Source of the DNA: a virus
DNA: 49,987 nt
Reading direction: 5' to 3' (one strand)
IMG/VR virus record: IMGVR_UViG_3300005253_000289
Location: 1 to 49,987 of that record
Positions 8,000 to 27,890 of this stretch are shown in pieces (positions within the stretch are counted from its first letter, which is position 1; the number at the start of each line of letters is the position of its first letter). The notes below the pieces were generated by a model. The model worked only from the letters and a program-made list of their open reading frames with translations. It ran no database searches and was not told where the DNA came from. The position numbers and the translations under genes are program-made.

Positions 8000-8066
8000 A
8001 GAATACCCCCCAACTTCCACTTGTAGGGTCTGAATCTGTATAAATATAATTATCAGAATCAGGCAT
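7938..8066 (-). CDS. 42-residue overlapping ORF or 5' end of a frameshifted gene
   Basis: An ATG at 8066 has a good SD (AAGAAGGTG) and overlaps the upstream stop as TAATG, the usual join in this region. The frame overlaps the gene ending at 7826 in another register. It may be a real 42-residue protein with a hydrophobic middle. Alternatively its first 20 codons belong to the downstream gene, split by one extra base in a run of six G. Confidence 0.3.
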   Translation of the reverse strand: MPDSDNYIYTDSDPTSGSWGVFYAYFFFCAYTTNVGGTPTRV

Positions 8067-8317
8067 TATACACCTTCTTTCCAATAGAACAACGGGTTGT
8101 TTACTTTATCCATTGCTGTTTTATAATCGGAGTGTTTCAGACATCGTTTGCAAATAACTTTCTTGGGGTTAAATATACCAAGAGAATAGTAACTACTCAC
8201 ACGTCTTTTAATAATATTTTTATCAACAGGTATAACACTCACACCCCAATCACATACAGCCCTACAGACACAATTACTCATTATTATTAAATGTATTGGT
8301 TTATTTAGCTTCGCCAT
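8066..8317 (-). CDS. Small Cys-containing protein ending in PLFYWKE motif
   Basis: Start at ATG 8317 with GGAG about 7 bases upstream, overlapping the end of the polymerase gene. The 83-residue product has CVCRAVC near the start and CKRC in the middle, a possible zinc site, and ends NPLFYWKEGV. The shared C-terminal heptapeptide with the next gene is the main reason to regard both as real. Function unknown. Confidence 0.55.
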   Translation of the reverse strand: MAKLNKPIHLIIMSNCVCRAVCDWGVSVIPVDKNIIKRRVSSYYSLGIFNPKKVICKRCLKHSDYKTAMDKVNNPLFYWKEGV

Positions 8318-10599: not shown

Positions 10600-10886
10600 A
10601 TCTCTATCCCCTCTTTTAATAATACCATACAATCAAAACTTGCGTTGTGCATAATCACCATCTTCGCCTCTGATAAGTAGAAGTCAAGAATCATTAGTAA
10701 CTCCTTCTTATATTTCCTGTGTATATCCACATAACACGCTTGAGTACCATCACACAAAGAGAAACCTATTATCTCAAGGTCTAACCAGTTCAAAGACGTA
10801 CACTCTGTGTCCAGTGAGAAGATGTCTTTACAATTAATCATCCAATCCTTGAAGTCATTAGGGGTTTTTATTACAGAGGTTTTCAT
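10596..10886 (-). CDS. DNA polymerase I family, N-terminal exonuclease part
   Basis: Start at ATG 10886 (MKTSVIK). The 96-residue product carries Exo I (FSLDTECTSL, with Asp and Glu) and Exo II (MHNASFDCMVL) of a DEDDy proofreading domain and stops after KEGIEI. In intact polymerases this point is followed directly by an IFDT segment, exactly how the C-terminal part begins at 9830. The two genes are therefore one exonuclease-polymerase broken between Exo II and Exo III. Activity would need association of the two chains. Confidence 0.85.
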   Translation of the reverse strand: MKTSVIKTPNDFKDWMINCKDIFSLDTECTSLNWLDLEIIGFSLCDGTQACYVDIHRKYKKELLMILDFYLSEAKMVIMHNASFDCMVLLKEGIEI

Positions 10887-10890
10887 TGAC

Positions 10891-11058
10891 CTAAAACCAA
10901 TCATCATAAAGACCTTTGGCTATCCAAACCCAGAACAACATCGCACAAATAGGAAGTGTGATATAAAAATAACGTATACCTAATATGACTACCACAGCCG
11001 CTAAGATAATAAAACAAGGAACACATAAAAAACACAATAACAATTTTAATAAATTCAT
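10891..11058 (-). CDS. 55-residue membrane protein
   Basis: ATG at 11058 with the SD AGGTAAGAAG. Two hydrophobic segments (about residues 3-28 and 31-48) fill nearly the whole protein, and the C-terminus is KGLYDDWF. It ends five bases before the start of the split polymerase's first part. Role unknown. Confidence 0.55.
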   Translation of the reverse strand: MNLLKLLLCFLCVPCFIILAAVVVILGIRYFYITLPICAMLFWVWIAKGLYDDWF

Positions 11059-14438: not shown

Positions 14439-15308
14439 TTATTCCCCTTTTACAAACGGACATATACTTCTACTGCGACAGTACCTAATACAGAAAATAG
14501 GTTCGCTCTGAACAATCTTAAAACTGTCTTTCTTCCCACCTAAGTTCCAACCAATACAATATTTATTTACCTCATCGTAGGTATCTCCTACCTTAGTTGG
14601 GGTCTTGTTCTTCCCTTTATAAGCCTCCCACCTAATACCTCTCTGTTTATCACTACAAGGCTTCTCATACTGATTGGGGTTATCAAATACAGGATGAGCT
14701 AAATGCTTCTGTACTTGACTATGTATATATTTATCTTGTGTTTCAAAGTCCCACAAGTTTAAGCGGATACACTCGTATGGTATCAACGGATAATCCTTCC
14801 AATGAATGTTACCCTGTTTCCAATCCCTGTACCATATATCTACTAACAGTTCGTTTACTACTTCTGGTGTAGTCACTCCCCCAAATTTACGTATCCTCCT
14901 TTGCCAAGCATAGCAGTTCATCTGTTTAGTCCATTTAGGAATACGATACTTCGGGCCATACACACCAGTTTGTTTTAGCTCAAGTACCGTCTGTGCCCAC
15001 GACATATCTGCTTTACCAACTACTATTATACCATCAACTACATCCTCGAACTTTCTTTCAGCATCTTCATCATCAGTTGCACATTTCTCATATCTACTGT
15101 GTAAGGATATTCCCTGTACCATAGTAATTAGGTCAGAGTAGTCCTGTACTATATCATCCCAATGATTGATGAATAATATACGAGGTAGTGGGTCGTCTAT
15201 TAAATCAGTAATAGATAATCTATTTAACTCTGGTTTTCTATCTTTATACTTTCCTTTCAAAACTCTAATTACCCTATCAGGTAAGTTATGGCGATTTTCC
15301 CATTTCAT
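14439..15308 (-). CDS. PD-(D/E)XK nuclease, Cas4/RecB-like with Fe-S-type cysteines
   Basis: A 289-residue protein. The nuclease core shows GKADMSW (Asp101), VLELKQTG (Glu110 and Lys112) and the helix YAWQ (Gln136), the standard PD-(D/E)XK set. One Cys lies before the core (Cys76) and three at the end (CIRYCRSRSIC), the arrangement that holds a 4Fe-4S cluster in Cas4 and AddB-type nucleases. The likely role is DNA end resection in recombination. It overlaps the DUF551-like gene by 4 bases. Confidence 0.8.
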   Translation of the reverse strand: MKWENRHNLPDRVIRVLKGKYKDRKPELNRLSITDLIDDPLPRILFINHWDDIVQDYSDLITMVQGISLHSRYEKCATDDEDAERKFEDVVDGIIVVGKADMSWAQTVLELKQTGVYGPKYRIPKWTKQMNCYAWQRRIRKFGGVTTPEVVNELLVDIWYRDWKQGNIHWKDYPLIPYECIRLNLWDFETQDKYIHSQVQKHLAHPVFDNPNQYEKPCSDKQRGIRWEAYKGKNKTPTKVGDTYDEVNKYCIGWNLGGKKDSFKIVQSEPIFCIRYCRSRSICPFVKGE

Positions 15309-16076: not shown

Positions 16077-16310
16077 TTATTTCATAAAATCAAACTGTAA
16101 TTGTTGGCCTACCTTTATTACTGGTTCTATATCCCTTCCTCTAACAACCCAAAACAAATATTTTTTTGTGACTGTATCTACACATATACTTTCTTGGTTA
16201 CGAACAGTAATTATTTTTCCCATTGCCCCTACCTCGCTTTCCGCCACATTAATATCAATAGCAGAAGGTAATATTCTTACCTTATCTCCAACCTTAAATT
16301 TAGTTTTCAT
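16077..16310 (-). CDS. SH3/KOW-like small protein with QLQFDFM tail
   Basis: A 77-residue protein of two parts. The N-terminus has the KFKVGDKVRILP opening and a beta-rich body with a central Gly, typical of SH3-like or KOW barrels. The last residues are IEPVIKVGQQLQFDFMK. Nine other proteins in the window end in the same QL-x-F-x-F peptide. The gene overlaps no coding sequence and abuts the lipoprotein gene. Function unknown; a peptide-docking tail is inferred. Confidence 0.75.
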   Translation of the reverse strand: MKTKFKVGDKVRILPSAIDINVAESEVGAMGKIITVRNQESICVDTVTKKYLFWVVRGRDIEPVIKVGQQLQFDFMK

Positions 16311-16757
16311 TTATACAGCCCCAACATTTTTATCTATGATTCCACGAATAGTGGATTCTGTTGCAGCAGACGGTTTATCCCAAACACCCTTAGCAGTTCC
16401 CTTCAAATAAGGTTTAAGTTGATTCCATAATTTCTTATTCCCTTTAACTACATCCAATACACTAACCGTATGCTCTAATGGCGTTTTATATTTAGTGACT
16501 TCCTTACCCATACGCCGCCATACATAAGTACCGGCGGCCCCAGCAGTAGCTATAGGGGCTAAAGCGGGTATAAAGAGTGACAACATTCCCAATATATCTG
16601 TAGTCGCTTGGGCGGCATCACCAATCTGGCTATGTGTAAAAGGGTTAAGGCGTATATGGGAACCTGTCTCATCCTCTACAATCTGACATCCCAACGCCCC
16701 CAAAATCAATATCAGCCCAATTAGTGTTATCATTACTGTTCGTAATAGCTTCTTCAT
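16311..16757 (-). CDS. Predicted lipoprotein with internal membrane segment
   Basis: A 148-residue protein. The N-terminus is MKKLLRT, a hydrophobic stretch, then LGALGC, a lipobox with Cys24 as the lipidated residue. A second hydrophobic Ala/Ile/Pro segment (residues about 60-80) is followed by YVWRRMGKEV and a soluble C-terminal part. It should be exported and membrane-anchored, where it could act in lysis or superinfection exclusion; neither is shown by sequence. Confidence 0.7.
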   Translation of the reverse strand: MKKLLRTVMITLIGLILILGALGCQIVEDETGSHIRLNPFTHSQIGDAAQATTDILGMLSLFIPALAPIATAGAAGTYVWRRMGKEVTKYKTPLEHTVSVLDVVKGNKKLWNQLKPYLKGTAKGVWDKPSAATESTIRGIIDKNVGAV

Positions 16758-16758
16758 C

Positions 16759-16989
16759 TTAATCCCCTTTCATAAAATCAAACTGTAATTGTTCACCAAC
16801 TTTTATTGCAGGTTCTATTTCAGTCGGCAGATATGGAAACCCTCCATAATCATTACCTTTATATTGCACTAATACATATAAGTTATCAAACCCTACTACC
16901 TTTCCAACCTTAGTTTTTTGTCCAAATCTATTTATAAACTCAGGTTTTAGTTTTACCTTATCCCCTTTTTTGAAACTGTGTTTAACCAT
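16759..16989 (-). CDS. SH3/KOW-like small protein with QLQFDFM tail
   Basis: A 76-residue member of the tail family: HSFKKGDKVKLKP opening, KVGKVVGFDNLYVLVQYKG barrel-like strands, and the end IEPAIKVGEQLQFDFMKGD. Next to the lipoprotein gene and overlapping the HNH gene upstream by 37 bases. Two further residues follow the tail, so the motif need not be at the exact C-terminus. Confidence 0.75.
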   Translation of the reverse strand: MVKHSFKKGDKVKLKPEFINRFGQKTKVGKVVGFDNLYVLVQYKGNDYGGFPYLPTEIEPAIKVGEQLQFDFMKGD

Positions 16990-17264
16990 TTCTTAAGATA
17001 CTCCATCAACCCTTTGGCTCTAATTAAATCATCCCCTAAGTACTTTAGCAAACGAGAGTTACAATAATTACACAGGATACCTCGCACGAGTTTTGTCTTA
17101 TGGCAATGGTCGATTGCAAAGTTCCTTTTCTCTTCCTTCTGATGTTTACCACATATAGCACAACACCCTTTTTGTTGTTTCAATAATTTGTTGTATTGGT
17201 AAATACTAATTCCGTACTTTTTTTTAAGGTATTTATCTCTGTCGTACTTTACTCTTTTACCCAT
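16953..17264 (-). CDS. HNH endonuclease, recombination endonuclease VII family
   Basis: A 103-residue protein with the endonuclease VII zinc/HNH layout: CCAICG, then NFAIDHCHKTKLVRGILCNYCN, which supplies the metal-binding Cys pairs and the catalytic His. A basic N-terminus (KRVKYDRDKYLKKKYG) and helical C-terminus flank it. Such proteins nick DNA as junction resolvases or free-standing homing endonucleases. Its 37-base overlap with the next gene suggests intrusion into an existing operon. Confidence 0.85.
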   Translation of the reverse strand: MGKRVKYDRDKYLKKKYGISIYQYNKLLKQQKGCCAICGKHQKEEKRNFAIDHCHKTKLVRGILCNYCNSRLLKYLGDDLIRAKGLMEYLKKWLNTVSKKGIR

Positions 17265-17272
17265 AGTAATAA

Positions 17273-17524
17273 TTACCCCATAAAACTAAACAGAAGTTGC
17301 TGCCCTACTTTAATTACTGGTTCTATATCCTTCGGAGAAACCGCCCAATCACGTCTGTGGCCTGTTATTTTACATCTCTCATCCATATAAACTTTAATAT
17401 ATTGCATCATATAACTACAGTCTGTAACTGTTCCTATTTTACCAATCCCTGCATCATTTACACCAATATTAGAAGCTGATGGTAGTATTTTTACTTTGTC
17501 TCCAACTTTGAATTTAGAATTCAT
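17273..17524 (-). CDS. SH3/KOW-like small protein with QLLFSFM tail
   Basis: An 83-residue member of the tail family: MNSKFKVGDKVKILPSA opening, a KIGTVTDCSYMMQYIKVYMD barrel-like centre, and the end IEPVIKVGQQLLFSFMG. It is closest in sequence to the protein at 16077-16310, with which it shares FKVGDKV, ILPSA and the IEPVIKVGQQL run. It overlaps the primase gene upstream by 4 bases. Confidence 0.75.
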   Translation of the reverse strand: MNSKFKVGDKVKILPSASNIGVNDAGIGKIGTVTDCSYMMQYIKVYMDERCKITGHRRDWAVSPKDIEPVIKVGQQLLFSFMG

Positions 17525-18369
17525 ATATACGTCCCCAAAGCCTGCCTAACATACCCTTTTCCTTTTATTTGGACTAATTCACGGATGTCTTTCGCTCCTG
17601 TCAACCTATAGATATAACATTCATACTCTTGATACAGCATACCCCTCAACTTCTTTGCACCTTCCATCCCCACAACATCATTATCCGGTATTATGACTAC
17701 AACCTCAACCCCGTCTAAAATATCCTCAAAGAACTCTTCAATTCCCTCCGTGTGCATACAGTGTGGACGTGCCAAACTTTGTAGCCCCAAATCCCATACA
17801 GAAATACCATCACTAAATCCTTCGCAAATAAATATGTAGTAATCACCAATATAATTTCGAGGATACATAAGCCCTAAATGGGAACCTGTAACACAGCGTT
17901 TACTCCCATCTGGAAACCTACGCTGTATACCACAAAAACCACCCTCTCTAAAGTACTCCAATAAATCCTCCCTAAACATTGGGATTGTAAAAGAAGAACC
18001 ATCATACCCAACTAACCATTCGTCTAAACTCTTTGTGCTTATATTTAATTGCTTGGCCAATCCTAACTTTAGCAACGGAAACTTCTGTAGATTATCATAA
18101 CAACTTTGATTAAACATTCTCCATCTTGTATCCAAATTCTTATTATCATTATATATAACATAGCCCGATAAATTTAATTCGTGTACCTGTTCCTTAGTTA
18201 GACTTCCATTTCTACCACACGCCCAGCATTTCCACCTTCCATAGTACTTATCTAACAGTGATATAGATAAATTGGGTCTAACAATATCCTTATGAAAAGG
18301 GCATAGTGACCACACCTTATCGTGTTCTGTAAGGAGGATATTTAATTGTTTGAAGTCAGAGTCTTTCAT
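17521..18369 (-). CDS. DnaG-like DNA primase
   Basis: A 282-residue primase. The N-terminal zinc-binding module has CPFHKD and CWACGRNG. The TOPRIM domain shows YIFICEGFSDG (conserved Glu) and VVVIIPDNDVVGMEGA (DxD) in the expected order. It is shorter than bacterial DnaG and lacks its C-terminal helicase-binding domain. It is four genes from the DnaB-like helicase with small tail-family genes between, and should make RNA primers for phage replication. Confidence 0.88.
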   Translation of the reverse strand: MKDSDFKQLNILLTEHDKVWSLCPFHKDIVRPNLSISLLDKYYGRWKCWACGRNGSLTKEQVHELNLSGYVIYNDNKNLDTRWRMFNQSCYDNLQKFPLLKLGLAKQLNISTKSLDEWLVGYDGSSFTIPMFREDLLEYFREGGFCGIQRRFPDGSKRCVTGSHLGLMYPRNYIGDYYIFICEGFSDGISVWDLGLQSLARPHCMHTEGIEEFFEDILDGVEVVVIIPDNDVVGMEGAKKLRGMLYQEYECYIYRLTGAKDIRELVQIKGKGYVRQALGTYI

Positions 18370-18596
18370 ACCGCATTATCCATAAACTCAAATAGCAACT
18401 GTTGGCATTTGGTTGGCATTTTTTCTATTTCTTTTCCATACATTAAAGGACTCCAACCTGTCTTTTCATCTATAACTCTGCAAGCAAATATAGAGTTTAG
18501 TGGCTGTACTTCCCCAACTTTATATACCTTTCCAACCATATCAGGAAAATCGAAGGATTTAATAATCCGAACTTTATCGCCTACTTTATATTTCAT
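18366..18596 (-). CDS. SH3/KOW-like small protein with QLLFEFM tail
   Basis: Start taken at ATG 18596 (MKYKVGDKVRII); a TTG at 18602 is in frame. The product has the KYKVGDKV opening, a VGKVYKVGEV strand pair and the end KCQQLLFEFMDNAV. The extra DNAV after the tail shows that small C-terminal additions are tolerated. It overlaps the primase start by 4 bases and lies next to a tail-only remnant. Confidence 0.72.
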   Translation of the reverse strand: MKYKVGDKVRIIKSFDFPDMVGKVYKVGEVQPLNSIFACRVIDEKTGWSPLMYGKEIEKMPTKCQQLLFEFMDNAV

Positions 18597-18598
18597 AA

Positions 18599-18649
18599 TC
18601 AAAACTCAAATAATAATTGCTCACCTAATTCTTCCTGTGTCTGTAACAC
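18599..18649 (-). pseudogene. Tail-only remnant of the QLLF family
   Basis: Upstream of the preceding gene, a short open stretch in one frame encodes TQEELGEQLLFEF followed by TGA. It keeps the family's C-terminal peptide but has no SH3-like body and no convincing start (a GTG at 18649 without a clear SD). It looks like what remains after deletion of a former tandem copy. A real 16-residue peptide cannot be excluded. Confidence 0.45.
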
Positions 18650-18675
18650 AATAGTGAGGATACTTAGTTATAATC

Positions 18676-19554
18676 TTAAAAATCATTTTCATATTCCTCT
18701 GGTTTGTTTCGGAAGCTCATCCAGGAGCTGATGAACGCACACTCCACATTACCACAAGCACCCGACCTATTCTTACAAACTATTAACTCAGCCTCTCCTG
18801 TATCCTCAGCATTAGGGTCTAACTGTCTATCAAAGTAACTCGGTCTATGTATTAATATAATCTTGGTAGAGTCGTTCTCCATAGCACCACTCTCCCGTAA
18901 ATCAGTCATACGTGGGCGTGGGTCTACACGGGACTCCACGTTTCTGTTAAGCTGAGAGAAAGCGATAACAGGTATATTAAACTCCCTGGCTATGGCCTTT
19001 AGCTCTCTGCTTATCTCCGATACTTCCTCTTGCCTGTTTGTTACCTGCTTTCTTAAAGACATAAGCTGTAGGTAGTCTACAATCAAACAAGCAATGGGTT
19101 CCTCCTTCTCAATAACTTTAAGAATCTCTCTTATAGAGTCTGGTACAACAAACGAATCATCATTGATTATAATACTATACTGAGATAGTTGTTCCAACGC
19201 AGTATGAAACTTAGTGAGTACTTTATCCCCTGCACACCCTCTTTTTATACTTTGGTAATCAACCTTTCCTAAGTTAGCCGCTAATAACTCCGTAACTTCG
19301 TTACAGGACATCTCTAAGGTACACAGTAGACACGCTCCTTCATTAACTGTGGGCTGCCCTATATTCAGGAGTATATCCCTTGCCATACTTGACTTGCCCA
19401 TACCAGGACGACCTGCTATAGTGGACATCTCACCTTTACCGAAACCAAGAATAAAATCATCTAACGCTTTAATCCCCGATGTTACCCCATCGAAAGGTTT
19501 CCCTATACTTTCTTTAATGTCTTTAAGGTCTTTGCGGAGGTCAAATACAGGCAT
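18676..19554 (-). CDS. DnaB-like replicative helicase (RecA-fold domain only)
   Basis: A 292-residue protein. Walker A is GRPGMGKSS, Walker B is CLIVDYLQLM, and SQLNRNVESR plus RPRMTDLRESGAMENDS match DnaB motifs H3 and H4. The N-terminal collar domain of bacterial DnaB is missing; the protein opens at the linker (ITSGIKALDD-like GVTSGIKALDDF). The neighbouring gene upstream could serve as a loader or adaptor. It should unwind the phage template as a ring. Confidence 0.92.
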   Translation of the reverse strand: MPVFDLRKDLKDIKESIGKPFDGVTSGIKALDDFILGFGKGEMSTIAGRPGMGKSSMARDILLNIGQPTVNEGACLLCTLEMSCNEVTELLAANLGKVDYQSIKRGCAGDKVLTKFHTALEQLSQYSIIINDDSFVVPDSIREILKVIEKEEPIACLIVDYLQLMSLRKQVTNRQEEVSEISRELKAIAREFNIPVIAFSQLNRNVESRVDPRPRMTDLRESGAMENDSTKIILIHRPSYFDRQLDPNAEDTGEAELIVCKNRSGACGNVECAFISSWMSFRNKPEEYENDF

Positions 19555-19563
19555 TGGTTAATC

Positions 19564-19794
19564 CTATTTATCCATAAAACTAAATAGCAGTTGTTGATTC
19601 TTTACAACTAAAGGTTTGAATTTACAGGTAGTATAATGACCACTCATTTGATAATTTACATCCCCTATCCATACTACTTTGAGAAAGCTATTATACCCCC
19701 CAACTATTTCTTTCACAATAGCGATTGCCCCTTTCGGTGCAGCCATACCACTATTGTTTACAAGTTCTACTTTTTGTCCAACCTTAAACTTCAT
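19564..19794 (-). CDS. SH3/KOW-like small protein with QLLFSFM tail
   Basis: Start at ATG 19794 (MKFKVGQKVELV) with GGAGCAGGAAA upstream, overlapping the end of the adaptor-like gene. The 76-residue product has a barrel-like GAIAIVKEIVGG segment and ends VVKNQQLLFSFMDK. It sits directly downstream of the adaptor-like gene and upstream of helicase, inside the replication cluster. Confidence 0.74.
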   Translation of the reverse strand: MKFKVGQKVELVNNSGMAAPKGAIAIVKEIVGGYNSFLKVVWIGDVNYQMSGHYTTCKFKPLVVKNQQLLFSFMDK

Positions 19795-20110
19795 TTTCCT
19801 GCTCCGTATTTTCACGTTCTATTATCTTACTACGAACCGACTGACCACGTGGCTTAGACTGTGGTTTATAAACCTTTTTGTACTGCTTATCCAAGTTATT
19901 CAATACCCACCGCATAGCTAAAGGAGGCCAGTAGGTTATCCCTTTCCATCCCTTGCTCTCATAACACAGGAAACAGCTTTGTGCTAAATAATCTAATTGG
20001 GTTTTACTAAAGGTATACCCCTTATCCGCACAATAACTCTGCATGACTTCAAGGACTTCTAAATCAGATTGAGGCTTGTTAGATTTTAAGGGTTTATCTT
20101 TCACAAGCAA
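19784..20110 (-). CDS. Replisome-organiser / helicase-loader-like protein
   Basis: A protein of about 108 residues just upstream of the helicase. The segment CYESKGWKGITYWPPLAMRWVLNNL resembles the YxxKGW...W...W pattern at the C-terminus of DnaD-like phage replication proteins, and the tail is basic. TTG at 20110 or GTG at 20104 are the possible starts; neither has a clear SD, so the start is uncertain. The role as helicase adaptor is inferred from position and this motif. Confidence 0.5.
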   Translation of the reverse strand: MLVKDKPLKSNKPQSDLEVLEVMQSYCADKGYTFSKTQLDYLAQSCFLCYESKGWKGITYWPPLAMRWVLNNLDKQYKKVYKPQSKPRGQSVRSKIIERENTEQENEV

Positions 20111-20339
20111 AGTCGAATAATAGTTGTTGATTAGGAATCGTTAATATTTCCAAACTTCCCATATTAGTACTCCACTTGTGCTCAGAATCCTCATATCTGT
20201 CAAATGCTAAATGTGAACCTGGTACTACAATCCATACGAGGCTACCTATATACCCAACAATCATCCCCTTTTTACCTACATCTGGGCGATGACAGCCCCG
20301 ATACTTAATCTTTGTACCTACTGGATACTTTTTAGCCAT
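20094..20339 (-). CDS. SH3/KOW-like small protein with QLLFDFA tail
   Basis: An 81-residue tail-family member: KKYPVGTKIKYRG opening, KKGMIVGYIGSLVWIVV strands, and the end TIPNQQLLFDFACER. It is the only copy with Ala instead of Met after the last Phe. SD AGGTGAAAG precedes the ATG. Its opening is matched by the chimeric protein at 20609-20887. Confidence 0.74.
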   Translation of the reverse strand: MAKKYPVGTKIKYRGCHRPDVGKKGMIVGYIGSLVWIVVPGSHLAFDRYEDSEHKWSTNMGSLEILTIPNQQLLFDFACER

Positions 20340-20349
20340 CTTTCACCTC

Positions 20350-20604
20350 TTAAAACTGTGGTTCATCGGTCTTAGGTACTATAACATCCTTGACATACAG
20401 GTACTTCAATACTTCGGTGATACCAAGCTGTACCTTCATTAAATCAGTGGGCTTAAACGATTTAGTACGCTTCCAAGTATCCCCATCCTTATATGATTTA
20501 TCAATAGTTACACTGTGGAATACGCCCTTACCTGTGTCATTCGCCCATATCGAAAGTTGTACGCCACCTACTTTTATAGTTTTTTCTGGTTTGCTACTAC
20601 TCAT
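20350..20604 (-). CDS. Hypothetical protein, possible ssDNA-binding-like
   Basis: Start at ATG 20604 (MSSSKPEKTIKVGG) with a strong SD (GGAGG). The 84-residue protein contains LSIWANDTGKGVFHSVTIDK, then DGDTWKRTKSFKPTDLMK and a C-terminal helix. This pattern is common in short phage and bacterial proteins of unknown function; the beta-strand-rich body and location among replication genes would suit an OB-like ssDNA-binding protein, but that is a guess. Confidence 0.55.
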   Translation of the reverse strand: MSSSKPEKTIKVGGVQLSIWANDTGKGVFHSVTIDKSYKDGDTWKRTKSFKPTDLMKVQLGITEVLKYLYVKDVIVPKTDEPQF

Positions 20605-20608
20605 AATA

Positions 20609-20887
20609 CTACCTCCAAATATGTTTCCATAATTTATTGTTGACAATTTTACTTATTGTAACATCTGTTACACCGTAAACTTTAGCTATTTCTTTTTGTG
20701 TAAACAGCCCAGTTTGATACTTACGAATAATTACCTTGACCGAATTTTCTGTTAGTTTTGCCATTCCATGTTTTTCTCCGTAATTAAAGCATTTTCCTTT
20801 AGTCGTAGTTTTGTGTTCTATTTTACCTTTGTCAGAGTTGTGAAAGGTAAATTTAATCTTAGTACCAATAGGGTATCTGTGTTTCAT
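20609..20887 (-). CDS. Chimera: SH3-like N-terminus joined to HNH-endonuclease C-terminal HTH
   Basis: A 92-residue protein. Residues 1-12 (MKHRYPIGTKIKF) match the opening of the tail-family protein at 20094-20339. From GEKHGMAKLTE onward it matches the C-terminal DNA-binding module of the NUMOD4-HNH protein at 21794-22300, including TQKEIAKVYGVTDVTISKI (helix-turn-helix) and NNKLWKHIW. No HNH motif is present and the QLLF tail is lost. It looks like a tail-family gene overrun by an endonuclease fragment, possibly now a small DNA-binding protein. Confidence 0.6.
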   Translation of the reverse strand: MKHRYPIGTKIKFTFHNSDKGKIEHKTTTKGKCFNYGEKHGMAKLTENSVKVIIRKYQTGLFTQKEIAKVYGVTDVTISKIVNNKLWKHIWR

Positions 20888-20904
20888 AATAATATGATTC
20901 CAAT

Positions 20905-20939
20905 AAAGGTATAGGATAAAACTTCTATCCTACACCTTT
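20905..20939 (-). terminator. Strong stem-loop, possible terminator
   Basis: A 14-bp stem with a single G-T pair (AAAGGTGTAGGATA against TATCCTATACCTTT, minus strand) and a 7-base loop lies just after the gene at 20969-21337. On the minus strand only a weak T stretch follows, so it may attenuate transcription or stabilise the upstream mRNA end rather than fully terminate. Confidence 0.5.
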
Positions 20940-20968
20940 TAACTCGTACACTTACTTACCGCCGATGC

Positions 20969-21337
20969 TTAGTCTCTACTGATATATTCGTAACCGTCCC
21001 CATCGGGGTCGACGAACTTATCCTTCTGGTCGGGTAAATCCTCAGTGTAAAGACCTTCCTCACTGTGGAAGTCACCCATAACAGGCACGACCTTTGTACT
21101 GTTCCTTGAACGTCCTGTGTCCGTGTTTACCAGATAGGCTCTCTTTGTACCGCCTGGAAACCGTACGATGCTTGCCAGTTGGTAATTACTGCCGTTTGCA
21201 TGCCTAAGAACCATCCCGATTGGGAATGTTCTGGTTGCACATGCTTCTACTAAGGCTGCAACTGCCTTTGCCACTTTCGGACGATTGGTGTCGATAGTGA
21301 CCTTTCTACCGTTCAACTTTACTTTAATCTTTGCCAT
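20969..21337 (-). CDS. Hypothetical basic/acidic protein, GC-richer than neighbours
   Basis: A 122-residue protein: a basic N-terminus (MAKIKVKLNGRKVTI), a helix with KAVAALVEAC, a barrel-like RHANGSNYQLASIV region, and an acidic end DPDGDGYEYISRD resembling a calcium-binding loop. The base composition is noticeably richer in G and C than flanking genes, and a strong stem-loop follows it, which may mark high expression or separate ancestry. No family recognised. Confidence 0.6.
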   Translation of the reverse strand: MAKIKVKLNGRKVTIDTNRPKVAKAVAALVEACATRTFPIGMVLRHANGSNYQLASIVRFPGGTKRAYLVNTDTGRSRNSTKVVPVMGDFHSEEGLYTEDLPDQKDKFVDPDGDGYEYISRD

Positions 21338-21338
21338 T

Positions 21339-21782
21339 TTAATCTCCTGTTAATGATTCGAGTACTTTTGTTATACTTTCTGTTTTGGTAGGATACTGAC
21401 CAAACGTATTGATAATATGGGTAAGAATATCCTTAGGATTAGCACTTGCTTTGTTTGCCTTGTTATACTTATCAATTAAATGATTAAGCATCTTTATGTT
21501 TTGGCTGTTAGGTATAGCAAGATTTAATCCACCGGCTATCTGTTCCCAATTAACCTTGTGTTCGGTACTACCGATTACACAATCGGTCTGACCCCTTTTT
21601 GTAGTCTCCTTACGTTCCTCATACACATAATCTATATACTTCTTTGTTAAGTCTGTAACCTTATTGACTTCATAAATGTCCTCCAATGGTAACTTTTCTA
21701 TCAGTGATTTTGTTATTGCAAGTTTAGATATTCGAAGGTCTTTATTCCGAAATTCTTGTATTTCTGCATCTGAATAACTCAT
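21339..21782 (-). CDS. Hypothetical helical protein
   Basis: Start at ATG 21782 (MSYSDAEIQEF), 12 bases after the HNH gene stop. The 147-residue protein is mostly helical and charged, with ASANPKDILTHIINTFGQYPTK near the C-terminus. The start resembles the tiny ORF on the far side of the HNH gene (MYSKEEVKAF), which hints that the HNH gene landed near this gene's 5' end. Function unknown. Confidence 0.55.
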   Translation of the reverse strand: MSYSDAEIQEFRNKDLRISKLAITKSLIEKLPLEDIYEVNKVTDLTKKYIDYVYEERKETTKRGQTDCVIGSTEHKVNWEQIAGGLNLAIPNSQNIKMLNHLIDKYNKANKASANPKDILTHIINTFGQYPTKTESITKVLESLTGD

Positions 21783-21793
21783 TTTATCTACCC

Positions 21794-22300
21794 CTAAATG
21801 TGCTTCCATATTCTACGATTTATAATACGGTTTATGGTGGAATAATGAACATTATAAAGTTTAGTTATGTCTTTCATCGTTTGCAGCATATCCCACCACA
21901 ATCTCCTAATCTCCAAAACATCTCGTTCAGTTAATTTATGATTGGTACTATCCTCACCACGCCTTAGACAGCTTGCAGTACTGTGTTTAATTGCGTCTTT
22001 AATATTACTACTCCTTGTACCCCACCGTAAGTTTTCTAATCTATTATCTAATCTATCACCATTATTGTGACAAGCCTCCATTCCTTTTGGACAGGAACTA
22101 ACAAATGCTTCTAATACTAATTTATGAACTTTTTTATCAATACCGCAAGAGTTTTTATACAACCTAACAGTTAAATAACCTTTTCCACTTATACCAGTAA
22201 GGTATTGTTTAAGAAATTTACCTGTTTTCCAACTCCACACCCTACCTAATGTAGTTATCTCGTAATCTGGTAAACCAACTATTTGTTTCCAATATGCCAT
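21794..22300 (-). CDS. NUMOD4-HNH homing-type endonuclease
   Basis: A 168-residue protein. The NUMOD4 module is WKQIVGLPDYEITTLGRVWSW; the HNH core has KVHKLVLEAFV and EACHNNGDRLDNRLENLRWGT, which carry the catalytic His and Asn; the C-terminal module is GEDSTNHKLTERDVLEIR followed by a helix-turn-helix and RRIWKHI. This is the complete form of free-standing HNH homing endonucleases in phages, which nick DNA near their own insertion site. No intron is evident around it. Confidence 0.92.
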   Translation of the reverse strand: MAYWKQIVGLPDYEITTLGRVWSWKTGKFLKQYLTGISGKGYLTVRLYKNSCGIDKKVHKLVLEAFVSSCPKGMEACHNNGDRLDNRLENLRWGTRSSNIKDAIKHSTASCLRRGEDSTNHKLTERDVLEIRRLWWDMLQTMKDITKLYNVHYSTINRIINRRIWKHI

Positions 22301-22344
22301 AGTATAACTCCTGTAAATGCTTTTACTTCCTCTTTACTATACAT
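22279..22344 (-). CDS. 21-codon ORF upstream of HNH gene, possibly a gene fragment
   Basis: An ATG at 22344 with GGAAGG upstream encodes MYSKEEVKAFTGVILWHIGNK and overlaps the HNH start in another frame. The opening (M-YSKEEVKAF) resembles MSYSDAEIQEF of the gene on the other side of the HNH gene. It could be the displaced 5' end of that gene or chance. Confidence 0.25.
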   Translation of the reverse strand: MYSKEEVKAFTGVILWHIGNK

Positions 22345-22348
22345 AATA

Positions 22349-22633
22349 TTATCCTTCCATAAAACTAAACAATAACTGTTGCCCAACTAATGTTCCTAAA
22401 GAATCTACTGGATACCAAAACATCTGCCCCACATCATTTACTGTATCCAACAAATACCCCAAATCTTTGTTTATTACTGATATTTTATAAACTCTCCCTA
22501 CTGTTCTATTCATATTCCGTCCAACAGAGCCACCATCAGAGTTCCACATTACCAATGAACCATAATTCCAACTAAAGACTATTTTTGTGACTCTAACTTC
22601 TTGTCCTACCTCAAACTTTTTATACCATTTCAT
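22349..22633 (-). CDS. SH3/KOW-like small protein with QLLFSFM tail (longest small member)
   Basis: A 94-residue tail-family member: KKFEVGQEVRVTKIV opening, a longer Gly/Asn-rich body with RTVGRVYKISVI strands, and the end SLGTLVGQQLLFSFMEG. The longer insert shows that bodies diverge while the tail is kept. It abuts the 163-residue hypothetical gene upstream. Confidence 0.74.
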   Translation of the reverse strand: MKWYKKFEVGQEVRVTKIVFSWNYGSLVMWNSDGGSVGRNMNRTVGRVYKISVINKDLGYLLDTVNDVGQMFWYPVDSLGTLVGQQLLFSFMEG

Positions 22634-22635
22634 AA

Positions 22636-23127
22636 CTAAATTCTACCTATTTTTATTACTTTAACTTTTCTATAACTTCCTTCATAATGTGGAGGTCTTG
22701 TATATTGCTTTCTAAGTGCCTTAGCTTGCTTGGTAGCGGCTGTTCTTGTCAAGTATAACTGTGGCGGCCCTGCGTAATCAAGCCAATATATCCAACCATC
22801 CTTATCTTTTTGACCTTTTCTAAGAAGTAGAATTGCGTACCAGGGGGAATTAGCAACAGCATCATATTCTGAACTGGTGGCAAATTCTATTTGACCGCCC
22901 CTCCAATTTATCATTCTTGTTTTTTGCGTAGCAGGATTTGTCTCATAACCTGCCCAAGAACTTTTATATGCTGGAGTATTCCTGAATTGTTCTGTTCGCA
23001 CAACCCTCATAACACGACACAGTAAACACTCACACCACCCACCGTCACCACAGCCATTTTTGGCAAGTCTACTTAATACCCTAAATGCTGTTTTACGAAG
23101 CAATCTTATTCTTTTTGTGTAAGCCAT
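22636..23127 (-). CDS. Hypothetical basic protein
   Basis: A 163-residue protein with an Arg/Lys-rich first 30 residues, a Cys cluster CGDGGWCECLLC that could bind metal, and an aromatic middle WYAILLLRKGQKDKDGWIYWLDYAGPP. Net charge is strongly positive, suggesting nucleic-acid contact. No family recognised. Confidence 0.55.
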   Translation of the reverse strand: MAYTKRIRLLRKTAFRVLSRLAKNGCGDGGWCECLLCRVMRVVRTEQFRNTPAYKSSWAGYETNPATQKTRMINWRGGQIEFATSSEYDAVANSPWYAILLLRKGQKDKDGWIYWLDYAGPPQLYLTRTAATKQAKALRKQYTRPPHYEGSYRKVKVIKIGRI

Positions 23128-23128
23128 T

Positions 23129-23206
23129 TTATTTCCCTTTCAAACTATAATGTAACTTTGCATGACAATTAGCACAAAGAACATCACATTTAGCTACTTC
23201 TTTCAT
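23129..23206 (-). pseudogene. HNH endonuclease remnant (C-terminal CxxCH part)
   Basis: The open stretch encodes GGSSGMKEVAKCDVLCANCH then AKLHYSLKGK. The KCDVLCANCHAKLHY string is the C-terminal metal-binding end of a large HNH family, but the catalytic first half is missing. It is therefore a broken endonuclease, or at most a 25-residue peptide from ATG 23206. Confidence 0.6.
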
Positions 23207-23234
23207 TCCCGAACTCCCACCTATTATATAGACG

Positions 23235-23396
23235 CTATATAGTATAAATACTTATATTTAGCACTATATATTGCGTCCCGCATATATTAGTGCTTAGGAT
23301 ATAATATATATAGCCCTTTTTACTTAGCACGAAAACGGTTGTAGTTTTGCGTCCTATAAATAATAAATCTGAAAATAATTTTAATTTTTGTAACAT
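23235..23396 (-). CDS. 53-residue ORF with good SD, uncertain
   Basis: ATG at 23396 has GGTGGAG seven bases upstream. The product is Ile/Tyr/Leu-rich with SKKGYIYYILSTNICGTQY and overlaps an AT-rich region of inverted repeats at 23231-23293. It may be real, or the region may be regulatory with a chance frame. Confidence 0.35.
   Translation of the reverse strand: MLQKLKLFSDLLFIGRKTTTVFVLSKKGYIYYILSTNICGTQYIVLNISIYTI
23261..23293. repeat. Imperfect inverted repeat, GCACTA...TAGTGC
   Basis: Outer arms GCACTA and TAGTGC and inner arms GCG and CGC surround a TCC loop, with slipped TATAT strings between. A second partial arm (GACGCTATATAGT at 23231) can pair with ACTATATATTGCGTC inside the repeat, giving alternative folds. 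TTGCGTCC recurs at 23347. Possibly an operator or RNA structure upstream of the HNH remnant. Confidence 0.4.
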
Positions 23397-23435
23397 TTCT
23401 GCTCCACCTGTAACGATTATAAGGGTTATATAGCA

Positions 23436-23585
23436 TCAACATTTATTATAGTCAAATTCTCTGTGGGCTAACCATTTTATATAACGAAAACACCAATGAA
23501 TTTCAAGTAAGCCGAATGTTAATACTCGCACAACTCCACTTGCAATCTGAATCCAACCAAAAACCCAAGTTTGATGCCAATTCAT
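23436..23585 (-). CDS. 49-residue amphipathic/TM-like protein
   Basis: ATG at 23585 follows a strong SD (ATAAGGAGAAGAAAA). The protein is Trp-rich with one moderately hydrophobic stretch (WVFGWIQIASGVVRVLTFGLL). It ends FDYNKC. The SD and tight packing argue for translation; function unknown. Confidence 0.5.
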   Translation of the reverse strand: MNWHQTWVFGWIQIASGVVRVLTFGLLEIHWCFRYIKWLAHREFDYNKC

Positions 23586-23602
23586 TTTTCTTCTCCTTAT
23601 AT

Positions 23603-23857
23603 CTAAAATTTATCTTTAATCGGTAAAATACTGGTGTCCAACAAATCTAACCGCTTTGTATTTCTAATTGACTCCCGATTTCTTTTATAAGTATTCCGCA
23701 ATGCTGTTGCGTTACAAAATTCTTTGGGGTGGTTCTTTAGTAGAGATTTAATACGTTGTCTAATTGTTGTTAGTGACACTTTTTGTTTCTTTGCTATTGT
23801 TTGTAACGGATAGTTTTGAGCGAATAATAGCAGGGTTGTTATTTGTTTATCTGTCAT
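23603..23857 (-). CDS. Helix-turn-helix DNA-binding protein
   Basis: An 84-residue basic protein. MTDKQITTLLLFAQNYPLQTIAKKQKVSLTTIRQRIKSLL has the pattern of a LuxR/sigma4-type helix-turn-helix, with IAKKQKVSLTTIRQRI as the HTH core. The rest is Arg/Lys/Asn-rich. It is a candidate phage transcription regulator, and the inverted repeats just downstream are possible targets. Confidence 0.65.
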   Translation of the reverse strand: MTDKQITTLLLFAQNYPLQTIAKKQKVSLTTIRQRIKSLLKNHPKEFCNATALRNTYKRNRESIRNTKRLDLLDTSILPIKDKF

Positions 23858-23899
23858 TGTAAGTCCTTTTGTAATATATACTTATACTAAACTGTAAGC

Positions 23900-24118
23900 C
23901 TACTGCATCATAAAATCAAATAGTAGTTGTTGATTTTTTATTAGTTCTAAGGCTTGGTTATTAAACCAAAATCCCGCACCATTTGAAAAGTTTACATGCG
24001 AATAAGTCTTTTCTTTGTGAGTTATCACCCCGTCACTACTAAACATTTTAACAAGATTGGGAGACATTTTTGATATAACTCTATCCTTAACCTTTACTCT
24101 GTTACCGGCTCTAAACAC
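23900..24118 (-). CDS. SH3/KOW-like small protein with QLLFDFM tail
   Basis: A 72-residue tail-family member: FRAGNRVKVKDRVI opening, an SDGVITHKEKTYSHVNF strand pair, and the end ELIKNQQLLFDFMMQ. Adjacent to another copy at 24136-24354, forming a tandem pair 17 bases apart with little body identity. Confidence 0.74.
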   Translation of the reverse strand: MFRAGNRVKVKDRVISKMSPNLVKMFSSDGVITHKEKTYSHVNFSNGAGFWFNNQALELIKNQQLLFDFMMQ

Positions 24119-24135
24119 TATTATTATCCTCCGAA

Positions 24136-24354
24136 TTATGTCATAAAGCTAAACAATAATTGTTGTCCTTTTACTAACTCTAAGTCTCTACTAAGTACAA
24201 CTACTTCTACTTTTGAATCCCCAAATTTAATATATAAACAACCCCTATCGACTCTTTGTGCAATTCCTATATAGGTAGTTAATTTATATGTATTAATATA
24301 AAATGTTCGCACCTGTAATTTTATTTGTATTTTATTACCTACCTTAAATCCCAT
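24136..24354 (-). CDS. SH3/KOW-like small protein with QLLFSFM tail
   Basis: A 72-residue tail-family member: MGFKVGNKIQIKL opening, TYIGIAQRVDRGCLYIKFGD strands, and the end DLELVKGQQLLFSFMT. It is the upstream half of a tandem pair. Its ATG lies just after an 80-base gap that separates it from the M20-type peptidase gene. Confidence 0.74.
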   Translation of the reverse strand: MGFKVGNKIQIKLQVRTFYINTYKLTTYIGIAQRVDRGCLYIKFGDSKVEVVVLSRDLELVKGQQLLFSFMT

Positions 24355-24434
24355 TTTTAACTCCTAAATCAGTATTAGTTAGATACTTACCTAACATTTA
24401 TTATGAGACTGTTCTTGTTATATATTTACTTAAC

Positions 24435-25823
24435 TTAATTAAGTCTGGTATCACTCGGACAGGCACAATCTTCACATACACGGGTTCCAAACCTTTCTAT
24501 AATCTTATGGTCTTTGGGTATTACTTTGTCACAAACCCAACATTTTTTAATAGTGTCTTTCCCTATATACTCTCTTAAAACATTAGCACACTCTCCACAA
24601 ACTAATAAACCTTGTACCATCGTAGAGTAATGATTTTCTGGAATTATCTCTTGGCACGATTCACACACAATGGGGGTATCCTCATCGTTAGATACTTCTA
24701 ACAATGCCCTACAACCCTTACAGTATAAATACTCTACTTTGCCCACCATAAAGGGCTTCAATGAATCACCTGGTTTTAAGTCAGTAGCTATTACACCACA
24801 TTCGTGACAAGCAAATTCTGTACCAGCAAATGGTACAATATTTTGCTTGTGACCTTCGGGGTTCCGAGGTCTTGAACCAGTAGGTTTCTTATTATCTTGC
24901 TTTTTATTATTTTTCTTGTCATATATCTTTTTCTTGCAAGGCCAGCACATTACTTCTTTCGGGTTACTCCCCCTGACTTCGTATAATAAAACGTCCTTTT
25001 TCCATTTTTTACACTTACAACATTGACTGTAAAGTGATTTATATACAACTGTAACTGGCGGCGGCGGTAATGAAGGATACCTTTTTATCTGCATAGTATT
25101 TATTACTTCTTCTGTAAACTTCATACTGTTCCATAAGTCAGCAACAGATATATGTTCATATTCAGAGTGCGGCCTATAATATCCGCAAGAGATATTTATA
25201 CAAGAGACACCAACATTGTTGTCCCATAACGTCATTACATCGGTTATAGTACCAATAGCATTTTTATACCTGTACTTTTTCTTTACTAACCCAATTTCAG
25301 AAGAGAACTCATGAGATACGGTTTTTTTACCCCAATAGGTTTGGATAAAATCTCTCTTACCCCTTCTATCTAACTGAATGATATACATACAATCTGTAAA
25401 GAACTTATGATTTATCTTTCTACTACCTTTACACCCACTTTCCTCTCCTGAAAAGAATACAACTTTTATTACAGGTAACACATTTAACATATATAAACAC
25501 GCAAGTATACCACATTTATCATCCCCACCAACACCTATTCTTTGCTTACCACTTATAGCGAATAGTATATCATTATCATCTCTGTCTACACATAGTTCGA
25601 AATTATCTACGAAGTCGTATACTGTATCCATGTGGGATACAACACAGGGGTATAGTTTAGCTTTACCTTTTGTAACCAGGATATTTCCAGCGGAGTCAAT
25701 AGTATAAGGTAACTTTAGTTTCCTAAGCTCTTTATCAAGGTACAATACCATCAGCTTTTCGTTCTCACTGTTGGTTTGTACTTTTAATAAAGGAAGTAGT
25801 TTGTTATACCAATATGTATCCAT
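24435..25823 (-). CDS. M20-type metallopeptidase fused to C-terminal zinc ribbons
   Basis: A 462-residue protein. Residues 1-245 match M20 peptidases (PepT/CPG2-like): SHMDTV (His64, Asp66), GGDDKCG (bridging Asp101 or 102), FFSGEESGCKGS (Glu127 and 128), QLDRRG (Asp152) and PHSEYEH (His219) supply the two-zinc site. The dimerisation domain usual in M20 enzymes seems to be absent. After a Pro run (LPPPPV) come at least four CxxC-type zinc ribbons, including QCCKCKKW, CHECG, CESC and CWVC. The fusion suggests targeting to a nucleic acid or protein partner. The substrate is unknown. Confidence 0.8.
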   Translation of the reverse strand: MDTYWYNKLLPLLKVQTNSENEKLMVLYLDKELRKLKLPYTIDSAGNILVTKGKAKLYPCVVSHMDTVYDFVDNFELCVDRDDNDILFAISGKQRIGVGGDDKCGILACLYMLNVLPVIKVVFFSGEESGCKGSRKINHKFFTDCMYIIQLDRRGKRDFIQTYWGKKTVSHEFSSEIGLVKKKYRYKNAIGTITDVMTLWDNNVGVSCINISCGYYRPHSEYEHISVADLWNSMKFTEEVINTMQIKRYPSLPPPPVTVVYKSLYSQCCKCKKWKKDVLLYEVRGSNPKEVMCWPCKKKIYDKKNNKKQDNKKPTGSRPRNPEGHKQNIVPFAGTEFACHECGVIATDLKPGDSLKPFMVGKVEYLYCKGCRALLEVSNDEDTPIVCESCQEIIPENHYSTMVQGLLVCGECANVLREYIGKDTIKKCWVCDKVIPKDHKIIERFGTRVCEDCACPSDTRLN

Positions 25824-25824
25824 A

Positions 25825-26304
25825 TTATTTTACCTCTTTTATTGCTCCTGACCACAATGTCCATATCAGGCAAATCTTGTTATATATTTTTTGTCTATCA
25901 TTCCACTCTAATCCTACAAAACATACACTATACTCATAGTCTAATCCACTAAACCCACTCCCACCCACAAGATAACAAACATTAGCTATACTTCTTATTG
26001 GTAGTCCAAATACAGGAGAACGGCCTATTACTACCCCGTTATTTTCTGTTATCAACCGATACTCTCTCCATATTTCTTTTTTTGTATTTTTGTGGAATCT
26101 TTCTTTTTTATATATTCCTTTTTCTTTATTTATATATTTCCATATTTTTCTATGTTTTCGTATTAAGTTTTTGAGGACTCTGGTTTCATGCCCCTTTCCT
26201 TTATTTAGTGTTACTATATTACCCTCTATAAACCTATGCTCAAGATAGTGTGGGTATCTATCTAAGGTTATAGTTTGAATAGGATGTCTTTTTTTCTTTG
26301 GCAT
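25825..26304 (-). CDS. Hypothetical basic protein
   Basis: A 159-residue, strongly basic protein (IRKHRKIWKYINKEKGIYKKERFHKN is spread over the middle) with a C-terminal aromatic region. ATG at 26304 overlaps the stop of the 528-residue gene by 1 base. No family recognised; basic charge suggests nucleic-acid contact. Confidence 0.55.
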   Translation of the reverse strand: MPKKKRHPIQTITLDRYPHYLEHRFIEGNIVTLNKGKGHETRVLKNLIRKHRKIWKYINKEKGIYKKERFHKNTKKEIWREYRLITENNGVVIGRSPVFGLPIRSIANVCYLVGGSGFSGLDYEYSVCFVGLEWNDRQKIYNKICLIWTLWSGAIKEVK

Positions 26305-27890
26305 TATTTCCCCATAAAACTAAATTGTAACTGCTTTTTATTTGGAGCTTCAAACTCCTGCTTAATATACCATTTACCATTAAACCTTTTTATATACTGT
26401 CTATTATTAGATGAATCTACAATAAGTTCACCAGTGATAAGTTTAATAAGACCTACTCCATTTGTACGGTATACTTCTTGATACTCAAGATTGTTTGCAA
26501 AGGAATTATGAATAAGATTATAGGCTATTACTGCGTGTTCTTTGGGTATAAGGTTACCTTCTCTTGTTACTACTGCACCAGGAGCTACTGATTGTATGAT
26601 TGTTTGAGACCTTATATAAGAATCTGGCAAATCTATATCAGAAAGTAAAGGCCGTTTTGTAAGTTCTCTATTTACTGCTTCTCTGTTATAGTTTATAAAA
26701 CATTCCGAGATATGATACCACTTACCATTAAAGCAGATAATGTCAGAATCTTTAGTGTGGTATATTTCATCTTTGATGTTTACAACATTCGTTTTATGTA
26801 TATATCCTTTGTGTTTTTCGGAATAAACGGCTTTGGTTTTGTCTATTAGCTCATTAGAAAAGTACTCATTTACTGAATTTTCTTTTAGTAAAAACCCGTC
26901 AATTTTTGATTCTACAAGTGCTTTATCGTATTTACTATAATAGTCTCCATTTATATTTACAATATTCTTTTTTAGTACATACCCATTATAGCGTTTTACC
27001 CTTACAGCGTCTTTTTTAGATATATGATTGTGAGTAAGCACTTCTTGTACTCTATCTGGGTCAAGAGCAGGGACGTAACCCCCTTCTGTTGTATGGGTTA
27101 GAGTTATACAGAAATCTTTGTCCTTTACTCTTTTAGTGATAGCGGAAGATGTACTTGCACCAATAAGACTATCTTTATAGTATAAATATCTAAATGTATC
27201 GGTGTAGGGTAGGTGACATATACCTTTTAAGTTTATGTTATCTATATAATGACTACCCCTCGCTTTCCCAGCAGAGGTTGAAGCATAGTGTTTCCATTTA
27301 TTCTTTTTAGCCAAATCATAGAATTGTGTTATAAAGCTGTCTGACCTTGCATATACCCTGTCAAGATATGTAAAGGTAAATGTATCCTTATGTTCTGTAC
27401 TTTTTACGTCTCCCCATAACAAAGCACGGGCGTGTATTTTATTATTATTATCTGTAATTACTACAATCCGTACATTGTTTTTAATATAGAAGTTCAATGA
27501 TTTCTGATTTTCTTTACTCCGCATACAAGAGCCTCCCAAAATACCCCCACCTGAGAAGTAATTAGTACGCAAATAAGCATATCTTATTTTATTTGAGGGA
27601 AGGATTTTTAGCTCTGTTGTTAATTTAGCATCTTCTTTTGCTCGTATCATATTTGCAATACACCTAGAAAGAGATTCACGGGAAGGTTTGATATGATAAT
27701 AAGTAAAATCATATAAAGATTTTTTACGAGAAAGACTATAACCTTTTTGACTGTAAGTAACACTAAATATATCAGTTTCAAAATATGTTATTCTAGGAGC
27801 AGTTATTTTTGGTGATATAAAATACTTTGTTCCGTTTAGTTTATTGTATTCGGCGAGTATTTTATAAAAGTCGTATTTTTTATTAGGCAT
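26304..27890 (-). CDS. 528-residue phage protein with SCMR/ARALLW signature and QLQFSFM tail
   Basis: Residues about 110-165 contain GILGGSCMRSKE and then RIVVITDNNNKIHARALLWG, a signature of a widespread phage protein family of unknown function. The C-terminal half consists of four or so short repeats built on a [K/Y]-x-N-[IV]-VNI-x-[DG]-x-[IY]-Y pattern (NIVNINGDYYSKYD, NVVNIKDEIYHTKD and similar). The protein ends NKKQLQFSFMGK, the peptide shared with the small SH3-like proteins. It is the only large protein with that tail. Confidence 0.7.
   Translation of the reverse strand: MPNKKYDFYKILAEYNKLNGTKYFISPKITAPRITYFETDIFSVTYSQKGYSLSRKKSLYDFTYYHIKPSRESLSRCIANMIRAKEDAKLTTELKILPSNKIRYAYLRTNYFSGGGILGGSCMRSKENQKSLNFYIKNNVRIVVITDNNNKIHARALLWGDVKSTEHKDTFTFTYLDRVYARSDSFITQFYDLAKKNKWKHYASTSAGKARGSHYIDNINLKGICHLPYTDTFRYLYYKDSLIGASTSSAITKRVKDKDFCITLTHTTEGGYVPALDPDRVQEVLTHNHISKKDAVRVKRYNGYVLKKNIVNINGDYYSKYDKALVESKIDGFLLKENSVNEYFSNELIDKTKAVYSEKHKGYIHKTNVVNIKDEIYHTKDSDIICFNGKWYHISECFINYNREAVNRELTKRPLLSDIDLPDSYIRSQTIIQSVAPGAVVTREGNLIPKEHAVIAYNLIHNSFANNLEYQEVYRTNGVGLIKLITGELIVDSSNNRQYIKRFNGKWYIKQEFEAPNKKQLQFSFMGK

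Follow-up and report, generated by a model that had tools for sequence, protein, structure and literature searches.

In E. coli polymerases, the clamp-binding motif (CBM) is either a pentameric QLxLF or a hexameric QLxLxL (PMC4564189). According to a 2024 review, the CBM has Gln at position 1, an aliphatic residue at 2, a free position 3, Leu or Met at 4 and Phe or Leu at 5 or 6, in pentameric or hexameric form; the C-terminus of E. coli Pol III alpha reads SEQVELEFD (PMC11139829). Clamp motifs are usually terminal (PMC3716654). In phage T4, one interchangeable C-terminal clamp epitope is carried on flexible linkers by different proteins, gp55, gp33 and gp43, and such epitopes serve in late transcription (PMC2988020). 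Gp168, a small protein of Staphylococcus phage Twort, targets the host clamp, where it occupies the DNA channel and blocks loading rather than binding in the CBM pocket (PMC11139829). Here we analyze one double-stranded DNA phage record of IMG/VR, IMGVR_UViG_3300005253_000289 (positions 1 to 49,987; hereafter the window, 49,987 bases), in which ten proteins end in a common C-terminal peptide, QL[LQ]F[SDE]F. We consider these tails to be probably (about 0.7) disordered C-terminal clamp-docking tags, with docking predicted at the beta clamp (DnaN) of the host.

The phage set is comparable to T4 in that one epitope terminates different proteins. However, T4 encodes its own clamp, gp45, and has three carriers of known role, whereas this phage has about ten carriers and is proposed to use the host clamp. 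It would resemble Twort in directing small proteins to the host clamp, but the presumed docking site of the tails differs from that of Gp168.

A common C-terminal peptide in a clade of uncultured phages

The ten proteins are encoded on the minus strand; nine are small, 72-94 amino acids (aa), and one has 528 aa. The hexamer is followed by two to six residues, the first of which is nearly always Met. An initial annotation, made from the letters of the window, had already listed all ten, and each was found at the expected stop, which is the lower coordinate in the list below. The free choice of codons that it described was likewise observed (Gln CAA or CAG; Leu TTA, CTA, CTT, CTG or TTG; Phe TTT or TTC). 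Shuffled window proteins yielded on average 0.003 such C-termini per window, with a maximum of 1 in 2000 shuffles, compared with a real count of 9 (the protein list of this test was without 18366), and the reversed DNA pattern, used as a control, gave 0 matches. The tail genes and two related remnants are as follows (all on the minus strand).

16077..16310, minus: SH3/KOW-like small protein, 77 aa, tail QLQFDF (16086-16103), with orthologues in sister phages
16759..16989, minus: small protein, 76 aa, tail QLQFDF (16774-16791)
17273..17524, minus: small protein, 83 aa, tail QLLFSF (17282-17299)
18366..18602, minus: small protein, 78 aa, ATG at 18596, tail QLLFEF (18384-18401)
18602..18667, minus: orphan tail ending EELGEQLLFEF and a stop, peptide at 18602-18619, no body and no ATG
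19564..19815, minus: small protein, 83 aa, tail QLLFSF (19576-19593); translation more likely starts at an internal ATG ~7 residues downstream
20094..20339, minus: small protein, 81 aa, body of the 'YPVGTKI' group, tail QLLFDF (20109-20126)
20609..20887, minus: chimeric, tailless open frame, YPIGTKIKF opening joined to the C-terminal portion of an HNH-type homing endonuclease; homologous to 21794-22300-type proteins
22349..22633, minus: small protein, 94 aa, tail QLLFSF (22361-22378)
23900..24118, minus: small protein, 72 aa, tail QLLFDF (23912-23929), weak PHROG 2827 match
24136..24354, minus: small protein, 72 aa, singleton body, tail QLLFSF (24145-24162)
26304..27890, minus: 528-aa protein of a different fold, N-terminal part weakly GNAT-like, tail QLQFSF (26316-26333)

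The bodiless peptide had been noticed before and indeed lacks a body, although its position is 18602-18619. Since its open frame has no ATG and is located after the helicase stop, the orphan looks like a relic, probably of a deleted paralogue. A frameshift fusion to the helicase was ruled out by a stop between the frames. The chimeric frame 20609..20887 is a broken member of the tail family: compared with 21794-22300 (minus strand), it displays an SH3-type opening joined to an HNH-type homing endonuclease end. Further HNH genes adjoin tail genes (16953-17264). This points to tail genes as sites where homing genes insert or recombine.

Because the small bodies are too divergent, helicase, capsid and the 528-aa protein were used as probes for related uncultured records; a single small body searched against viral contigs retrieved no relatives. 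Core proteins of the records found are mostly 48-91% identical to those of the window. The records are IMGVR_UViG_3300022538_000217 (G001), 3300022538_000248 (G002), the overlapping 3300008516_000904 and 3300005820_000004 (G003 and G004), 3300009034_000068 (G005, the contig of which begins within the tail-gene array) and 3300022540_000325 (G006; its tails recur in 3300022542_000566, together with an identical helicase). QxxFxF C-termini were counted in 10 proteins of the window (G000), 13 of G001, 11 of G002, five each of G004 and G005, and eight of G006, a total of 52 in six independent records. More distant G012 and G013, with a capsid 60% identical, have no tails. Exact tail scans of all IMG/VR contigs returned this clade and chance matches only, the pattern matches in viral contigs outside the clade being internal or antisense. 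No named phage relative was found by DNA or by capsid; the best named helicase match is 38.6%, and the small bodies reach matches with E-values of 0.08-1 at most. The tail marks out a clade of phages for which no named relatives were found.

Among the 52 proteins, Q1, F4 and F6 are invariant (52/52 each) and L2 is replaced once, by Ile (51/52), while position 3 may be L, Q, T, V, M or A and position 5 S, D, E, N, A, G, Q or L. Met directly follows the hexamer in 49 of 52 cases. The residue preceding Q1 is mostly Q (23), E (17) or K (7), and the motif is followed by 1-6 residues of varying sequence, 38 of them acidic versus 17 basic. Pairwise synonymous differences per pair amount to 0.47, 0.54, 0.28 and 0.12 at Q1, L2, F4 and F6, whereas the non-synonymous ones are 0, 0.04, 0 and 0; position 5, by comparison, has 0.83 non-synonymous differences per pair. 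Thus, non-synonymous change is nearly nil at the four sites and synonymous change is common, in line with the earlier claim that codons vary while residues are fixed, and codon comparison indicates that selection acts on the peptide. The register has to be revised, however. The QQLLF pentamer initially proposed is ruled out, as neither Q at -1 nor L at 3 is conserved; the conserved register is the hexamer Q1-L2-x-F4-x-F6.

Pentameric replacements and the sliding clamp

Members of the families that lack the hexamer in sister phages were found through body similarity or the opening motif, with no assumption on the replacement tail. The 528-aa family ends in KKQLQFSFMGK in the window, KKQLAFDFGGIK in G001, KKQLLFEFMEK in G002, KNQSLLFDAKGQ in G004, KNQLLLFT in G005 and KNQLLLLEDKK in G006, the motifs of the orthologues being QLAFDF, QLLFEF, QSLLF, QLLLF and QLLLL, respectively. 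Similarly, the orthologue of 16759 ends in RKQLMLFEL (G004), that of 22349 in QQLMLFEL (G005) and that of 17273 in QQLLLWDDV (G006), and a further small member of G004 ends in RRQLMLFEL. In another G004 member, RQQLFSFME, position 2 is Gln, which makes the tail a near-hexamer. All seven pentameric replacements, namely, QLMLF (twice in G004 and once in G005), QLLLF (G005), QSLLF (G004), QLLLL and QLLLW (both G006), fit Q-x-x-L-[FLW], although the seven are not all independent, two G004 tails being near-identical. As a background, Q-x-x-[LM]-[FLW] is matched by 1.1% of the Q-initiated 5-mers of these phages. By their form, the replacements are pentameric sliding-clamp-binding motifs. A switch between pentamer and hexamer at one site is the behavior of a clamp-docking tag and is predicted by none of the alternatives considered below; therefore, we regard it as the key evidence for the clamp. 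The suggestion of the initial annotation that the proteins are docking adaptors, with the clamp as the leading hub, thereby gains support at the level of predicted binding, through the orthologous switches to QLMLF, QLLLF and QSLLF. Tail peptides of the set, such as KVGEQLLFDFMK and ARKQLMLFEL, are putative DnaN ligands.

The tails and the bacterial CBM (Pol II, Pol III alpha, Pol IV, Hda, MutL, IS transposases) have in common Gln1, Leu2, a free position 3 and a hydrophobic pair, as well as a terminal disordered site, the coexistence of both forms, and unrelated carriers. Position by position, Gln occupies position 1 in 52/52 hexamers and 7/7 pentamers; position 2 is aliphatic in the hexamers (51 Leu, one Ile) and is Leu in the variants, save for QSLLF and RQQLFSF; Phe6 is present in 52/52 hexamers, and pentamers have F, L or W at 5. 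The two forms interchange at orthologous sites, and in the one AlphaFold2 model the tail is terminal and disordered. Most pentamer variants agree with the strict rule throughout. Phage tails [GN]EQLLFEFMD can be set beside the SEQVELEFD end of E. coli Pol III alpha. What distinguishes the phage set from bacterial CBMs is Phe4 in the hexamers, about ten small and partly paralogous barrels per genome, and usually a Met and a few residues after the motif.

The candidate host has a clamp and QxxLF-type motifs of its own. Capsid matches in the genome collection were confined to two contigs of one Cloacimonadota metagenome-assembled genome (MAG), at 98% and 92% identity (parts present), suggestive of Cloacimonadota as the host phylum. 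This MAG encodes a beta clamp and a DnaE with an internal QTNLF; QxxLF-type motifs are present in most of 30 sampled Cloacimonadota DnaE loci, and many DinB proteins of the phylum have QLNLF, QLTLF, QLHLF or QLDLF, and once GEQMKLDFY, resembling the phage tails. The pattern QLxFxFM had 41 matches in 80 Cloacimonadota genomes, similar to reversed controls, that is, chance; in this form, then, the hexamer is not widespread as a motif of the host. No phage-encoded clamp was recognized.

Several observations weigh against docking at the host clamp. Position 4 is Phe in 52/52 hexamers, as opposed to Leu in 7/7 pentamers; in E. coli motifs only Leu or Met is found there, and Phe weakened inhibitory peptides (PMC11139829). 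Even in Cloacimonadota, just one surveyed DnaE has Phe at this position (QTSFF, L150). Because of Phe4, the hexamer may work like a CBM but is not a strict member. Replisome use finds no support in the phage PolA, methyltransferase, exonuclease, nuclease and helicase, where no clamp motif patterns were detected; weak motifs are QLNIL in the primase and QLSIW in an SSB-like protein. Finally, two phage contigs binned with one MAG are the basis of the host assignment, and mis-binning is possible.

Carrier bodies, proposed mechanism and alternatives

Tail-stripped bodies form a 25-member 'KVGDKV' group, a 14-member 'YPIGTKI' group, several small groups and the unrelated 528-aa family. The K-[VIA]-G-x-K/R-[VI] opening that had been proposed for the small bodies is shared, but more loosely than claimed, given this subdivision. 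Orthologous bodies are mostly only ~40-55% identical. The AlphaFold2 model of 17273-17524 (mean predicted local distance difference test score, pLDDT, 74.7) has an SH3-like body, and residues 73-83 of 83, which bear the tail, have pLDDT <50. Its best Foldseek matches in the PDB, ribosomal L21e (template modeling score 0.62), Mind bomb, a DSIF KOW domain and NusG, are weak (E-value at least 5.7e-3), and the small bodies have weak Pfam matches to SH3_15, all Pfam matches being under the curated cut-off. Thus, the predicted fold is like that of SH3-like/KOW barrels (L21e, the NusG KOW, SH3_15 of Mind bomb), but the sub-cut-off matches and the lack of a convincing named phage relative set the phage bodies apart. 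On the best reading, the small bodies are probably SH3/KOW-like barrels, strongly diversified while the tag stayed fixed. The model of the 528-aa protein is of low confidence (pLDDT 59), with only weak GNAT-like matches. As the peptide terminates several body groups and a 528-aa family of different fold, it is common to unrelated carriers.

In the proposed mechanism, each tail would bind the hydrophobic cleft of host DnaN and so dock its body there, and the phage would make about ten adaptors from its replication region, all on one hub. The set may occupy host clamps and displace host partners, and/or the different functions of the bodies may be delivered to phage replication forks. The high number of carriers favors competition, and overexpression of a CBM peptide inhibits E. 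coli growth (PMC11139829). The diversity of the bodies favors recruitment. A more specific version is tentative, and we hold it to be somewhat less likely true than false: one fixed tag would park many fast-evolving SH3/KOW-like bodies on the host sliding clamp in a modular fashion. Such bodies could be binders of DNA, RNA, RNA polymerase or the replisome, or anti-defence proteins, and the host hub would be redirected to phage replication, or replication coupled to transcription as with T4 gp33/gp55.

Docking on a hub encoded by the phage itself, e.g. a 122-aa or 156-aa early protein, or a virion or replication protein, is unlikely. Possible hubs exist in several conserved early proteins without an assigned function, and both the confinement of the tag to the clade, as for a private interaction, and Phe4, unusual for clamp motifs, speak for it; yet the textbook clamp pentamers at the same sites would then be a coincidence. 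We give little credence to a degradation or localization signal read by a host protease or membrane, an option left open by the initial annotation. The tail is indeed C-terminal, hydrophobic and disordered, but the 1-6 variable residues past the motif are not those of a free-carboxylate degron, and an invariant Gln with spaced aromatics and free positions 3 and 5 implies a specific pocket. Slighter still is the chance of a cargo tag that packages internal proteins into the capsid, cf. encapsulin cargo loading: a short C-terminal peptide on unrelated proteins would fit, but the tail genes are in the replication region, away from the capsid genes, G012 and G013 have a related capsid without tails, G002 has 11 tails of the same type although its capsid and that of the window share just 48% identity, and pentamer/hexamer interchange would not be expected. 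Largely refuted is the idea that the peptide is just a structural strand of the barrel, or a remnant of SH3-family ancestry, with no role in docking. Kinship among most carriers, which are small barrels, could account for some of the tail similarity; in the model, however, the peptide lies beyond the SH3-like fold in a disordered segment, and it also terminates the unrelated 528-aa protein and is fixed while the bodies diverge.

Genome setting and significance

Replication genes occupy the minus strand at ~6.5-31 kb, and structural genes the plus strand. Tail genes are interleaved with those for a DnaB-type helicase (18676-19554) and a Toprim/zinc-ribbon primase (17521-18369); downstream of them are the genes for a family-A DNA polymerase (8301-9830) and nucleases, including a PHROG exonuclease (14439-15308). 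This neighborhood of replication genes counts in favor of docking at the clamp. The polymerase is split (8301-10907, minus), its N-terminal 3'-5' exonuclease part (10596-10907) standing apart from 8301-9830, and an N6/N4 DNA methyltransferase gene (9823-10632) lies between the two parts.

The small protein 20350-20646 (minus), kept in all six phages, ends in DEPQF, NDGIPF, GDVPF, GDTPF, NVPF or DDDNIPF, resembling the acidic tip DDDIPF of the bacterial single-stranded DNA-binding protein (SSB); it has no significant match in Pfam or PHROG. It is a candidate phage SSB, on the likeness of these ends, and would be another case in which a docking peptide for a host hub is put to use. Two unrelated small proteins, 7826-8020 and 8066-8329 (both minus), have another common C-terminal peptide, [KN][YN]PL[FL][FY][WL]K[ED], with carriers in most sister phages and both genes in some. 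A conserved helix-turn-helix protein, weakly sigma-region-4-like (23603-23857, minus), always ends in Phe, usually preceded by a basic or polar residue (KDKF, HTKF, IKQIF, IREKF). Also present are a clade-conserved M28/M42-like peptidase with C-terminal zinc-ribbon repeats (24435-25823, minus; PHROG 4191 peptidase) and, in the structural region, a trypsin-like protease with a signal-like N-terminus (38377-39393, plus). In contig 3300022542_000566 (L131), an open frame with a glutamyl-tRNA synthetase-like start (~329-1200, plus) adjoins tail genes.

To our knowledge, phage proteins that target the host clamp are few and single. Limited literature searches found no precedent for the use of a clamp-docking tag as an array, and the tails are probably a known docking principle used here in this way. 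If so, about ten diversified clamp-tagged proteins per genome would make the clamp a phage-controlled platform, the tails would provide a natural series of pentamer/hexamer interchange at one site, and the accepted clamp motif would be extended to Phe at position 4. Uncharacterized small phage proteins become directly testable, the predicted partner DnaN being a standard reagent, and the tails are possible leads for clamp inhibitors.

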